DNA from: an uncultured Holophaga sp.
Lineage (GTDB): Bacteria; Acidobacteriota; Holophagae; Holophagales; Holophagaceae
Assembly (NCBI RefSeq): GCF_963677305.1
Contig: NZ_OY781925.1
Span: 1,389,001-1,453,000, forward strand
Direction of reading: 5' to 3'
Length of the DNA: 64,000 nt
Shown here: in pieces, positions 15,019 to 22,050 of the stretch
How the letters are laid out: every line of letters begins with the position of its first letter
Numbering within the stretch: position 1 is the first letter of the stretch
Program-made: the position numbers and the translations under genes
The notes under the pieces: generated by a model
The model's input: the letters and a program-made list of their open reading frames with translations, nothing else
Database searches by the model: none
What the model was told of the DNA's origin: nothing

Positions 15019-15100
15019 CCAGGGATGGACAAACAGGGGGCCGGACGGCACGGGTGCCTGGGGCGCCATCCTTGTTCATCTGTGCGCATCCGTGGCCGCC
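15019..15100. repeat. Structured intercistronic element in the aroF-trpA gap (weak copy)
   Basis: The gap holds GGGATGGACA at its left and TGCGCATCCGTGG at its right, in inverted orientation, with a hairpin GGCAC-GG-GTGCC (15047-15058) between them. It resembles the better preserved elements in the trpB-trpF and trpG-trpE gaps and is probably a degenerate member. Confidence 0.45.
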
Positions 15101-17114: not shown

Positions 17115-17257
17115 TTGTCCACGGATGCACACGGATACCCACGGATGGGGTGCCGACCCACGCAGACCCTGGGATCCGGGTCTGGGAGGGGGGCGGGTCC
17201 GAGGGTCGGGTTCGCAGCTCCCCGTTTATCCGTGACCATCTGTGTCCACCGTGGCAA
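17115..17257. repeat. Structured intercistronic element in the trpB-trpF gap
   Basis: The left end (17115-17150) carries three CACGGAT-like repeats spaced about 12 bp apart. The right end (17221-17257) carries the inverted counterpart (ATCCGTGACCATCTGTG). Inside are the stem CCGACCC (17153-17159)/GGGTCGG (17203-17209) and, within it, the hairpin AGACCC-N8-GGGTCT (17164-17183). Ends and interior match the layout of the element between trpE and trpG. Confidence 0.7.
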
Positions 17258-18699: not shown

Positions 18700-19713
18700 T
18701 CAAAGCTCCCGGGTGAGGGCCCGCAGCGCCTCGAGCTTGGCATAGGCGGCGCCGGAGTCGATGGAGGCTTCCGCCATGCGGAAGCCCTCGGCCAGGGTCG
18801 AGGCCTTCCCGGCCACCAGCAGGGCACAGGCGGCGTTGGCGCAGACGGCCTGGCGGACGCCATCCTTCTGTCCCTTCAGCAGGGCGATGATGCGCTCGGC
18901 GTTGGCGGCGGCCTCCCCGCCCGTCAGCTCCTCCGGCTCCAGGGTGCGGGAGCCGAAGTCCTCCGGCTTGAAGGTGTGCTCGGTGATCTTCCCTTCGGAG
19001 ACCTCCAGCACCGTGGTTGGGGCGGTCAGGCTGACCTCGTCGTAGGGACCGGGGGTGTGGAGCACAAAGGTGCGCTCTGTGCCCAGGGCCGCCAGGACCT
19101 CGGCGAGGAGCCGCATGGCCTGGGGGCTGAAGGCGCCGATGACCTGCCGCTTCACCTGGGCGGGGTTGCACACCGGGCCGAGGAGGTTGAAGGCGGTGGG
19201 GAAGCCCAGAGCCCGGCGCACGGGCCCGATTTTGGCGAAGAGGGGGTGGTGCCCGGGGGCGTAGATGAAGCCGAGGCCCACCTCACGGATACAGCGGGCC
19301 ACGGCCTCGGGGCTGAGTTTGAGGGGCAGGCCCAGGGCCTGGAGCACATCGGCGCTGCCGGTCTTGCTCGAGACGCCGTGGTTGCCGTGCTTGGCCACCG
19401 GGACCCCGGCACCCGCCACCACGATGGCGGCGGCGGTGCTGAGGTTCACCGTGTGCTGACCGTCGCCGCCCGTGCCGACGATGTCCACGGCGGGGAGGCC
19501 TTCCAGTTCCACGGGGATGTACTGCTCCCGGAGCACCTCGGTGAAGCCGATGAGCACCTCTGAGGATTCGCCGCGGATGCGCAGGGCGGTGAGGGCGGCG
19601 GCCAGCTGTTCCGGCAGGGCGTGGCCCTCAGCGAAGGCCCGCAGCAGGGTGGCGGCGTGCTCACGGGTGACGGGGTCACCGGCAACGGTGCGGTGGAGAA
19701 GATGGTGGCTCAT
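18700..19713 (-). CDS. trpD: Anthranilate phosphoribosyltransferase
   Basis: 337 residues. DIVGTGGDGQHTVNLST binds PRPP pyrophosphate, KHGNHGVSSKTGSADVL contains anthranilate-binding residues, and the GPVCNP block is conserved. It transfers phosphoribose to anthranilate. Its ATG overlaps the trpG stop (ATGA), giving coupled translation with the glutaminase subunit. Length is normal. Confidence 0.97.
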   Translation of the reverse strand: MSHHLLHRTVAGDPVTREHAATLLRAFAEGHALPEQLAAALTALRIRGESSEVLIGFTEVLREQYIPVELEGLPAVDIVGTGGDGQHTVNLSTAAAIVVAGAGVPVAKHGNHGVSSKTGSADVLQALGLPLKLSPEAVARCIREVGLGFIYAPGHHPLFAKIGPVRRALGFPTAFNLLGPVCNPAQVKRQVIGAFSPQAMRLLAEVLAALGTERTFVLHTPGPYDEVSLTAPTTVLEVSEGKITEHTFKPEDFGSRTLEPEELTGGEAAANAERIIALLKGQKDGVRQAVCANAACALLVAGKASTLAEGFRMAEASIDSGAAYAKLEALRALTREL

Positions 19714-20297
19714 GCATTCACCTCACGGCGGCGGTAGAGACGGAGGAAGTTGCGGAGCATCTGGGTGCCCTGGGGGGTGAGCACGGACTCCGGGTGGAAC
19801 TGGACACCCTGGATGGGGTGCTCCTTGTGGCAGAGGGCCTGGAGGACGCCGTCGGCGCTGTGGGCCAGGGGCGTCAGGCAATCAGGCAAGGTCTCGGGAT
19901 CGACCATCAGGGAGTGGTAACGGCCCACCTCCAGGGGGTTGGGCAGCCCGGCGAAGAGGCCTTCGCCGTTGTGGTAGATGGGGCTGGACTTGCCGTGGAC
20001 CAGGGCGGGGGCGGGCACCACCTTGCCCCCGAAGGCCTGGCCGATGGCCTGCTCGCCCAGACAGACCCCCAGGGTGGGGATGCGGGGTCCACACGCCTTG
20101 ACGATGTCGAGAAGGAAGCCCGCCTGGGAGGGATTGCCCGGGCCCGGGGAGAGCACCAGGTAGTCAGGGTTCAGCTCCAGGATCTCCGCGGGGCGCATGG
20201 CGTCGTTGCGCACCACCTTGATCTCGGGGTGGAGTCCGCCCAGGAGTTGGACCAGGTTGAAGGTGAAGGAGTCGTAGTTGTCGATGACCAGGATCAT
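19710..20297 (-). CDS. trpG: Anthranilate synthase component II (glutamine amidotransferase)
   Basis: 195 residues of the class I amidotransferase family. The nucleophile Cys lies in LGVCLGEQAIG, where Glu replaces the usual His of the GVCLGHQ motif. The His/Glu pair is in VQFHPESVLTPQG. It releases ammonia from glutamine for TrpE. In many bacteria the same protein serves p-aminobenzoate synthesis; no separate pabA is seen here. It is separated from trpE by 285 nt that hold a large structured element, so the two subunits of the enzyme are not translationally coupled. Confidence 0.95.
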   Translation of the reverse strand: MILVIDNYDSFTFNLVQLLGGLHPEIKVVRNDAMRPAEILELNPDYLVLSPGPGNPSQAGFLLDIVKACGPRIPTLGVCLGEQAIGQAFGGKVVPAPALVHGKSSPIYHNGEGLFAGLPNPLEVGRYHSLMVDPETLPDCLTPLAHSADGVLQALCHKEHPIQGVQFHPESVLTPQGTQMLRNFLRLYRRREVNA

Positions 20298-20337: not shown

Positions 20338-20575
20338 TGTCCACCGATGCACGCCGATGAACGCCGATGGGAGATCAGGATCTGGAGGGATGCGGCCCGG
20401 GTGGCTGGGGCCGCCCCGCAGAGCGGGGGCGGTCGGCAGACCGACCGTGTTCAGGAAGGGGTGCGCCCCTGGGACGCGCGAGCGCGTCCACGGGGCGAAC
20501 CCCACCCTGAACCAGCCCCAGCCACCCAAGTGGGTCGCGCTCCATCGGTGTGCCTCCGGTTCATCGGCGGACAAG
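20338..20575. repeat. Large structured element with terminal inverted repeats between trpE and trpG
   Basis: The left end, from 20338, reads TTGTCCACCGATGCACGCCG followed by a further GATG repeat. The right end (20541-20575), read on the other strand, begins TTGTCCGCCGATGAAC, giving imperfect terminal inverted repeats of about 35 bp. The interior has a perfect 13-bp stem (20399-20411/20515-20527) enclosing three hairpins: 20411-20432, 20431-20446 (GGTCGG-CAGA-CCGACC), and a long interrupted one at 20449-20512. No coding potential is apparent. It looks like a miniature mobile element or a conserved RNA structure inserted in the operon. Confidence 0.75.
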
Positions 20576-20582
20576 TTGCCCA

Positions 20583-22001
20583 TCAGCGCACCAGCGATGT
20601 CGCGGCGGCGGCGAGCTTCTGGCGGCACTCGTCGAACTCCTTGTCGGGGATGGAGTCGGCCACGATGCCGGCTCCCGCCTGGAGCTGGACCTTGCCGTCC
20701 TTGACGATGGCGGTGCGGATGGCGATGCAGGTGTCCAGGTTGCCCCGGTAGTCGAAGTAGCCCACGGAGCCGGAGTAGACGCCCCGGCCGGGGCCCTCCA
20801 GATCGTGGATGATCTCCATGGCCCGGATCTTGGGGGCTCCGCTCACGGTGCCAGCGGGGAATCCGGCGAAGAAGGCGTCCACGGCGTGGGCGTCGGGGCG
20901 CAGCTGTCCCACCACGCTGCTCACGATGTGGAGCACGTGGCTGTAAGTCTCCACGGTGCGGTAGGCGGCGACCTTCACGCTGCCGAACTCGCAGACCCGG
21001 CCCACATCGTTGCGGCCCAGGTCCACCAGCATCACGTGCTCGGCCGCCTCCTTGGGGTCCTCCAGCAGCTCCTGCTTCATGAGTTCGTCGGCCTCCGGCG
21101 TGGCCCCCCTGGGGCGGGTGCCGGCGATGGGGCGCACCTCCATCTGGCGGTTCTGGACGCGCACCAGCATCTCGGGGCTGCCCCCCAGGATCGTGGCGTC
21201 GGCCTGGTCCAGGAAGAAATGGTAGGGCGAGGGGTTGCTCATCCGCATGCGCCGGTAGATGTCCAGGGGGTCCCCGGCGTAGGGGGTGATGTGCTGAGTG
21301 GAGAGGACCACCTGGAAGATGTCGCCCAGGCGGATGTGCTCCTTGGCCTTGGTGACGGCGGCGGCATAGGCCTCGCGACCCGGCAGGTCCGGCAATTCGG
21401 GCTTGCGCTCGGCACAGTCCAGGGGGCTGGCCCCGGCGCTGGCCACCAGGTCGGCCAGGCGGGCCAGGCGGATCTCGGCTTCCGCCCTGGCCTCGGTTTC
21501 CGAGGGGTGATCCTCCAGGACTGCATTGGCCAGGAGGGTCACGCGGCTGCGGGCGTGATCGTAGATGAGGATGTCGTCGAAGCGCTCCAGCACCGCGTCC
21601 GGCAGACCGAAGGGATCGGGCTTCACGGGCAGGCGCTCCACCGAGGCGGCGCAGGCGTAGCCCATGTAGCCCACATAGCCTCCGGCGAAACGGGGAACCT
21701 CGGGCAGCTCCTGGGGGCGGAAGGCGGCGAGGCGGGCCTTGAGGGCCTCGGGGAGGGAGCCAGGCAGGCACTCATCGCCCTTGGGGGTGCGGCGGAAGAG
21801 CTTGCCGTCCCGGGAGTAGAGCCGCTCCCTGGGTTCGAAGCCCAGGATGCTGTAGCGGGCCAAGTGGCTGCCGCCCTCCACGCTCTCCAGGAGGAATCCC
21901 TTGAGCCCGCGGCGGCGGGCGGCCACCAGGATCCCGACGGGGGTCAGGGTGTCGGCGGCCAGGGTCCGTGTCAGAGGCAGCACGTTGGGGGTGGGGTTCA
22001 T
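20583..22001 (-). CDS. trpE: Anthranilate synthase component I
   Basis: 472 residues from the ATG at 21999-22001, which has a GGAG-like site; an upstream ATG lies inside the attenuator. The N-terminal domain holds the LLES segment expected for Trp feedback binding. The C-terminal chorismate-binding domain has IAGTRPRG, LVDLGRNDVGRV and FPAGTVSGAPKIRAM. TrpE makes anthranilate from chorismate with ammonia from TrpG. It is the first structural gene of the trp operon and sits directly behind an intrinsic terminator and a Trp-rich leader peptide, so its expression should follow charged tRNA-Trp levels. Confidence 0.97.
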   Translation of the reverse strand: MNPTPNVLPLTRTLAADTLTPVGILVAARRRGLKGFLLESVEGGSHLARYSILGFEPRERLYSRDGKLFRRTPKGDECLPGSLPEALKARLAAFRPQELPEVPRFAGGYVGYMGYACAASVERLPVKPDPFGLPDAVLERFDDILIYDHARSRVTLLANAVLEDHPSETEARAEAEIRLARLADLVASAGASPLDCAERKPELPDLPGREAYAAAVTKAKEHIRLGDIFQVVLSTQHITPYAGDPLDIYRRMRMSNPSPYHFFLDQADATILGGSPEMLVRVQNRQMEVRPIAGTRPRGATPEADELMKQELLEDPKEAAEHVMLVDLGRNDVGRVCEFGSVKVAAYRTVETYSHVLHIVSSVVGQLRPDAHAVDAFFAGFPAGTVSGAPKIRAMEIIHDLEGPGRGVYSGSVGYFDYRGNLDTCIAIRTAIVKDGKVQLQAGAGIVADSIPDKEFDECRQKLAAAATSLVR

Positions 22002-22010
22002 GGTGGCTCC

Positions 22011-22050
22011 AGGCAAAAGAAAAAGGCCCATCGGGGTTGTCCGATGGGCC
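22011..22050 (-). terminator. trp operon attenuator (intrinsic terminator)
   Basis: On the minus strand an 11-bp perfect stem, AGGCCCATCGG/CCGATGGGCCT (arms 22040-22050 and 22023-22033, 6-nt loop), is followed by TTTTCTTTT. It lies between the leader peptide and trpE, the expected place for an attenuator. Other complementary segments nearby (CTGCTTG and CAAGCAG) could pair in the alternative fold. Confidence 0.9.

Follow-up and report, generated by a model that had tools for sequence, protein, structure and literature searches.

Several described systems resemble, in one respect or another, the element reported here. A review gives the length of Chunjie, a MITE of Geobacter uraniireducens, as 235 bp and puts the number of its additional copies at 37, each of 178-235 bp (PMC10969869). 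The class 2 repeats of Geobacter metallireducens are reported to consist of three tandem TCTCCGTS units, paired on opposite strands at a variable distance, and the account of these paired tandem repeats interprets them as possible regulator sites (PMC2700814). The intervening sequences (IVS) of 23S rRNA with the S23 protein have been termed selfish elements, and excision by RNase III is reported to have been shown for the Coxiella IVS (PMC4990558). Multicopy sequences are also mentioned in a further paper (PMC3543383).

The window analyzed here is a stretch of 64,000 nucleotides (G000:C1:1389001-1453000) from a genome of the family Holophagaceae, assembled as a single contig of 3.67 Mb and referred to below as the host genome. 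It contains a structured non-coding element in the gap between two genes that we take to be trpE and trpG; these two names are assumed or come from the original prediction made on this DNA, and the names of the neighbors used below (trp, glmS, thiolase, hbd, mnmA, carA, carB) are likewise assumed, having been assigned from the peptides or taken from the same source. Unlike a MITE, the window element ends in arrays of tandem 10-nt units like those that surround the genes of a nuclease family, the GxxExxY proteins; to our knowledge, this family is not known as a transposase. The window element also has a covarying three-hairpin core, and inspection by eye revealed no target duplication for this copy. 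Its short length (236 nt), lack of coding capacity, inverted ends and many dispersed copies are traits that it shares with MITEs such as the Correia elements and Chunjie, the latter being compared through its description in the review. The TCTCCGTS class of G. metallireducens resembles a unit type seen in the flanks of GxxExxY genes in our data (e.g. L172, L179), and the portion of that account available to us makes no mention of GxxExxY genes. The 23S rRNA IVS are similar to the window element in their complementary ends and optional small ORF, but they are sited in rRNA, their protein is S23, and the corresponding arrays in the family studied here have 7-nt units. In GxxExxY loci the same kind of arrays frames a gene, whereas the window element is without such a gene.

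Table 1. Position of the element, its parts and neighboring features, counted from the first letter of the window.
Feature	Position	Strand	Basis or remark
trpE	20583..22031	-	ORF; orthologues
trpG	19710..20297	-	ORF; orthologues
Structured non-coding element, trpE–trpG gap	20338..20573	.	member of a dispersed family; z of the best fold about -9
Left terminal array, three 10-nt units TGTCCACCGATG CACGCCGATG AACGCCGATG	20338..20369	+	sequence reading
Right terminal array, inverted, ATCGGTG...CATCGGCGGACA	~20543..20573	-	reading; pairs with left array in predicted fold
5' arm of perfect 13-bp stem, GGGTGGCTGGGGC	20399..20411	.	sequence and fold
3' arm of perfect 13-bp stem, GCCCCAGCCACCC	20515..20527	.	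sequence and fold
Hairpin 1, CCCCGC/GCGGGG	20414..20428	.	fold; 98% of cells paired among host-genome copies
Hairpin 2, GCGGTCGG/CCGACCGT	20429..20448	.	fold; A-U versus U-A swap at one pair
Hairpin 3, long, interrupted	20449..20512	.	arms rewritten in other copies, pairing kept
Additional, shorter element whose ends are of the same kind, trpF–trpB gap	17116..17254	.	both ends by motif search (G000:C1:1406119, 1406228)
Degenerate element remnant, one recognizable end	15040..15098	.	motif match G000:C1:1404078

The limits of the window element were drawn from its inverted arrays and not from an empty site (Table 1). The left end reads TGTCCACCGATGCACGCCGATGAACGCCGATG, and the two ends consist of facing tandem 10-nt units such as CCACGGATGAA, with a consensus of about 10 nt, CRCnGATGnn. 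The original prediction had described imperfect terminal inverted repeats of CCGATG-type units, which can be read directly in the sequence, and a perfect 13-bp stem enclosing three hairpins; the two 13-nt arms are indeed exact complements, and all three hairpins are present in the predicted fold. The extent that it had assigned, 20338-20575, is right at the left end but not at the right, where the array stops at 20573, just inside that limit. The folding energy of the element was -163.7 kcal/mol on the plus strand and -160.3 on the minus strand, with z scores of -9.15 and -9.70, respectively, and 0 of 200 shuffles folded as well on either strand. Two results agree with its remarks that the element is no protein gene and does not look like a familiar riboswitch: when a GxxExxY protein was compared by tblastn with a set of host-genome loci and the window, matches were obtained in L009 and L023 only and no such ORF was found in the window element, and an Rfam scan of the element returned no family at its gathering score. 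A known RNA family was rejected on the latter result, the sole Rfam match with E up to 1 being to a miRNA family, at 21.7 bits where the gathering score is 268.

The trpE–trpG gap measures 285 nt in the host genome, 156 nt in its sister species (G001), and 10 nt, from the trpE stop to the trpG start, in two genomes of genus g7 (G060 and G062). The gap of the sister species does not align to the window element and looks like a remnant with CTTCGTG-type units. At this site the window element was absent from all three relatives inspected, namely the sister species and the two g7 genomes, and it was probably gained in the lineage of the host genome. Given gaps of 285, 156 and 10 nt, it is reasonable to infer that the element uncouples trpE and trpG. 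Besides the window element, the same trp gene cluster contains a short and a degenerate element of this kind. The trpB–trpF gap is occupied in the host genome by the short element, which is of the CACGGATG type, and in the sister species by one that shares the three-hairpin core of the window element and has CACAGAGGG-type ends; close by in that species, another element has this core within CACCAAG-type ends. Ends of several unit types thus surround the same core in the sister species, so that a core is not bound to one type of end.

The window element belongs to a dispersed family. A blastn search with the window stretch gave at least 33 matches in the host genome (40 of 81 candidates were scored), and a covariance model built from 18 host-genome copies matched at least 29 distinct places there at E <= 0.001, with all 29 scored candidates matching and 18 of them in the model by construction. 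At the same threshold, and with at most 29 candidates scored per genome, the model gave at least 28 matches in the sister species; those listed amount to 21 distinct places, with 2 on the other strand of a place already counted. Overall, 53 of the 77 family genomes had a match to the model, and many of the matches listed for genus g3, being 70-130 nt long, probably reflect the ends alone. The terminal motif CCRCVGATGNNCRCVGAT, with at most one mismatch, was found at 78 sites in the host genome, overlaps counted, compared to 2 for the reversed control. It is present in 72 of the 77 family genomes, where the reversed control gives 0 to 5 sites per genome, and genomes with only a few motif sites are no better than that control. 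The gene context of the 29 places in the host genome was assessed from rough gene calls in 900 nt on either side, with no genome-wide expectation and with gene overlap unscored: the flanking genes were convergent in 12, tandem in 12 and divergent in 5 cases. By the same calls, the core of the 12 copies between co-directional genes lies in the sense orientation in 6 and antisense in 6.

The fold of the core is kept while its sequence changes across copies. Among the copies of the host genome (18 of 27 extracted, picked by eye for completeness, one of them trimmed by hand), 95.2% of the pair cells were standard, versus 37-48% when the partners were slid, and 16 of 54 pairs had changes on both sides; further pair types were not above the shuffles (32 versus 33.5). 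A mixed alignment was made from 10 sister, 2 g10 and 6 host-genome copies with limits set by hand, the cores of L343, L346, L349 and L350 being cut at one end. In this alignment 94% of the cells were paired, versus 41-51% when slid, with double changes in 23 of 33 pairs and a covariation score of 0.470, compared to 0.150 for shuffled and at most 0.113 for slid partners; relatedness among copies inflates such scores. Hairpin 1 had no double changes among the host-genome copies, and 3 of the 6 pairs of the matching helix were doubly changed in the mixed alignment. For hairpin 2, one pair was A-U in 11 and U-A in 7 of the 18 host-genome copies, and for hairpin 3 (helices 2 and 3) 20 of 27 pairs in the mixed alignment had changed on both sides. 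When the 12 sister and g10 copies were folded singly and judged by eye, 11 of them had three hairpins in a row; hairpins 1 and 2 were lost in the G001:C49 copy. DNA-level repair of palindromes could also keep the arms matched. The original prediction was to be given up if there were no other copy and no covariation, and both were found, with at least 29 places in the host genome and strong covariation. Its interpretation is partly supported: the many copies and the strong covariation agree with a miniature mobile element that is structured.

In genus g3, ends of this kind at L156 and L159 lie about 400 nt apart and enclose an ORF whose frame continues into the repeat (MNTDEHG and MNTDKHG, respectively). 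The ORF of L156 encodes a GxxExxY protein (NCBIfam TIGR04256; Pfam PF13366, PDDEXK_3), which belongs to the PD-(D/E)XK family. PF13366 matches were found in 62 of the 77 family genomes, with three in the host genome. A scan of named genomes with the GxxExxY protein of the host genome, from which the best 80 of at least 487 relatives were taken, gave loci labelled as Acidobacteria, Deltaproteobacteria, Planctomycetota, cyanobacteria, Betaproteobacteria, Chloroflexi, archaea and others; metagenome-assembled genomes account for many of these.

The flanks of these genes, 150 nt on each side, were scored for inverted repeats and compared with shifted placements in the same loci. For the named genomes, where 76 of the 80 loci were used and 4 with short flanks were left out, the median score was 41.5 versus 16 for 1947 shifted placements; 66 of the 76 loci were above the 95th percentile of the control, and 63 were above all of their own controls. 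In the family set, comprising the 30 best-scoring PF13366 matches and sharing some genes with the named set (e.g. L182, L208), 25 of 30 loci exceeded the maximum of 529 controls. The flanks of 10 of the 76 named and 5 of the 30 family loci were not above the control 95th percentile. With cross-paired flanks as the control, only 35 of the 77 loci used (of 80) were above its 95th percentile, because the loci share a motif, and we judge the same-locus control better suited for that reason. Within a single element, the ends thus tend to be more similar to each other than to the ends of other elements.

Motif counts and GxxExxY counts are correlated over the 77 genomes with a rho of 0.48, to which, being uncorrected for phylogeny or completeness, we give no weight; G016, which is 86% complete, has 33 motif sites and no PF13366 match. 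Beside glmS in the host genome, a copy, a GxxExxY gene and a second copy follow one another, both copies being full, and the gene thus has an element on either side and is not enclosed by the ends of a single one. About 20 kb from there the unit is found again, with a shortened gene. In the sister species, the GxxExxY gene beside glmS is preceded, at a distance of 85 nt, by the best-scoring copy of that species. In total, a match to the core was found near only 4 of 10 GxxExxY loci of the genus, in two species: L332, L335, L336 and L338 (weak, E 4.6e-7). Two GxxExxY genes that are apparently orthologous, G000:C1:2334007-2334345 and G001:C216:16819-17157, have no arrays by eye in the printed flanks; they are perhaps settled copies, and the gene behind them is presumably mnmA. 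The single-contig genome G065 (genus g9) contains 49 PF13366 matches and only 6 CACGGATG-type motif sites, and its GxxExxY genes perhaps use another unit type.

The PD-(D/E)XK pattern requires D, E and K residues such as D67, E77 and K79, which are invariant in 47 aligned GxxExxY proteins (from 47 of the 80 loci; 48 were chosen by hand and L263 was dropped for a stop codon). The predicted model of the protein has a pLDDT of 96.7, and its best Foldseek matches are nucleases, namely SSO0001 (4ic1, which we take to be a Cas4 nuclease), LHK-Exo and AddAB, the best of them at 1.3e-3 and none at E <= 0.001. A search by sequence for a solved relative returned a single match, an oxidoreductase at E 0.68, which was rejected. 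The GxxExxY protein looks like an active nuclease.

A second, unrelated small protein of the family, S23/IVP, provides a comparison for the arrays. PF05635 has matches in 23 of the 77 family genomes and none in the host genome or the sister species. Inverted arrays were found at 16 of the 24 S23/IVP loci tested against 430 control placements, 6 of the 30 loci having been left out by eye as truncated or minor matches. The period was 7 in 14 of these 16 arrays, and CRCnnA occurred in 2; the units in the family loci L352-L377 are 7 nt long, such as GCTATCA or GTCTTCA. For GxxExxY, the 89 loci with a flank score above 24 among 106 (76 named and 30 family) were considered: the period was 9-10 in 56 and 12 in 1, while 32 were without a clear period, and a repeated CRCnnA unit was present in 71. 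S23/IVP genes have the same layout with 7-nt units, and unit length therefore goes with the protein. By reading, the ends of the window element fit the GxxExxY type, with inverted CRCnnA arrays and a period of 9-10.

On balance we favor, with modest confidence, an interpretation of the window element as a MITE-like, non-autonomous satellite of mobile elements linked to GxxExxY. Behind it stand the dispersed family, the absence from the trpE–trpG site in three relatives, the covarying core and the association of ends with gene; it is this association that suggests mobilization by the GxxExxY nuclease. Weighing against such mobilization are the failure to find a target duplication for the window copy, the conventional MITE that carries one subfamily, the GxxExxY loci whose flanks do not stand out from the controls or are without a core match, the position of the host-genome gene between two elements, and the combination of one core with several types of ends. 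The GxxExxY protein would recognize the inverted arrays and help elements to move or be copied into spacers, in many cases directly after a stop codon; the window element would be a satellite that has lost the gene and carries a palindromic core in its place. Within the trp operon, co-transcription of the element would put a very stable hairpin between trpE and trpG; this hairpin may loosen their translational coupling and could be cut by a double-strand RNase.

The alternative that survives best, although we regard it as doubtful, is that the structured element was spread by ordinary transposases and recombination, with the arrays and the GxxExxY gene as passengers and with palindromes matched by DNA-level template switching and not by selection. 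One subfamily of copies in the host genome is nested in a conventional MITE with the ends CTGGTTATCG and CGATAACCAAG, the target duplications of which are perfect 9-bp repeats at the 556 kb and 2038 kb copies and imperfect at the 2529 kb copy. Part of the spread therefore had another vehicle and needs no GxxExxY protein. The combination of sister-species cores with several end types, the roughly equal folding of both strands, and the arrays carried by S23/IVP genes also agree with spread by transposases. However, the window copy does not lie within this outer MITE, its flanks being without CTGGTTATCG/CGATAACCAAG ends. In addition, arrays frame GxxExxY genes across phyla above the same-locus controls, and the type of array differs by protein family; this association and the family-specific type are unlike what would be predicted for passengers. 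The nested copies, either of the element or of its ends, are found in G000:C1 at about 556216, 2038559, 2529199 and 3651530 (L020, L016, L088 and L091).

It is unlikely that the element is an IVS-like selfish RNA insertion, excised from mRNA by RNase III in the way of the 23S rRNA intervening sequences. The terminal complementarity, the stem enclosing an ORF or hairpins, and the inverted-array layout shared by the S23/IVP genes of the family are all in keeping with it, as is the excision reported for Coxiella (PMC4990558). The window element, however, lies between trpE and trpG and not in rRNA, the family is orientation-neutral on the rough gene calls, and PF05635 is without a match in the host genome and the sister species; moreover, excision of this kind explains processing, not spread.

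We consider quite unlikely a structured RNA useful to the host, acting within mRNAs in processing, stability or regulation and with its fold under selection. The very stable fold and the strong covariation could be accounted for in this way, as could the position of copies near gene ends on the rough gene calls and the number of G-U pairs over the 18 related copies, which is 110 in the plus orientation versus 59 in the minus. The equal numbers of sense and antisense copies between co-directional genes nevertheless argue against a strand-specific RNA role, and the plus strand was the more stable in only 12 of 18 copies (p 0.24). The lack of the element at the orthologous site in three relatives and of any Rfam family likewise speaks against it.

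Arrays that serve as binding sites of nucleoid or global regulators, as proposed for the paired tandem repeats of G. metallireducens, where the class 2 repeats on opposite strands are read as possible IHF/HU sites (PMC2700814), are very improbable here and would leave the arrays around GxxExxY and S23 genes, with their protein-specific periods, unexplained. Mobilization as a REP/REPIN sequence by a Y1 (RAYT) transposase, which the palindromic nature and many copies of the element might suggest, is strongly disfavored and barely conceivable, as the PF01797 search found no such transposase in the host genome, nor a match in the sister species, while 13 of the 77 family genomes do match.

In genus g3, the same operon spacer, the thiolase-hbd gap, is filled repeatedly. 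The gap was parsed at 29 of 30 loci: 13 are short (32-35 nt), 7 are of 86-118 nt and contain small hairpin elements with units of several types, and 9 have longer inserts (314-478 nt). The inserts start within about 8 nt of the stop codon. At least 7 of the 9 long inserts have a PF13366 match beside hbd, and the remaining two, in G034 and G036, are without one among the matches listed. These gaps form a natural series of spacer insertions, short, hairpin-filled or long, in which the tolerance of operons for inserts can be studied.

More tentatively, the satellite interpretation can be extended beyond this locus. GxxExxY nucleases and, separately, S23/IVP proteins may each drive a class of mobile elements that has gone unrecognized and is defined by inverted arrays of short tandem units. 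The protein would read the unit length, which is 9-10 nt for GxxExxY and 7 nt for S23, and satellites without the gene, such as the window element, would be mobilized in trans and would repeatedly come to occupy the same operon spacers. A search of one literature library found no description of a link between GxxExxY and such arrays, and the papers that name GxxExxY, PF13366 or TIGR04256 are, by their titles and the start of their abstracts, not about such elements. Paired short-unit repeats surround GxxExxY genes in many phyla, and the literature found assigns a role to neither. Once the two are linked, what was a curiosity of annotation can be tested as a mobile-element hypothesis, with unit-specific binding by a small nuclease as its prediction, and the window element may point to a largely unrecognized kind of mobile DNA. 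Other unit types were also seen. At L157, L160 and L164 of genus g3 there are further array-like repeats in the same stretches, for example of the ATTTCGGTGATTTCAGTGATTT and CTCCGTTGTCCTCCGC types, and at L162 (G006:C1:1720111-1720362) ends of the CACCGATG type recur with a spacing of 117 nt near a GxxExxY gene.
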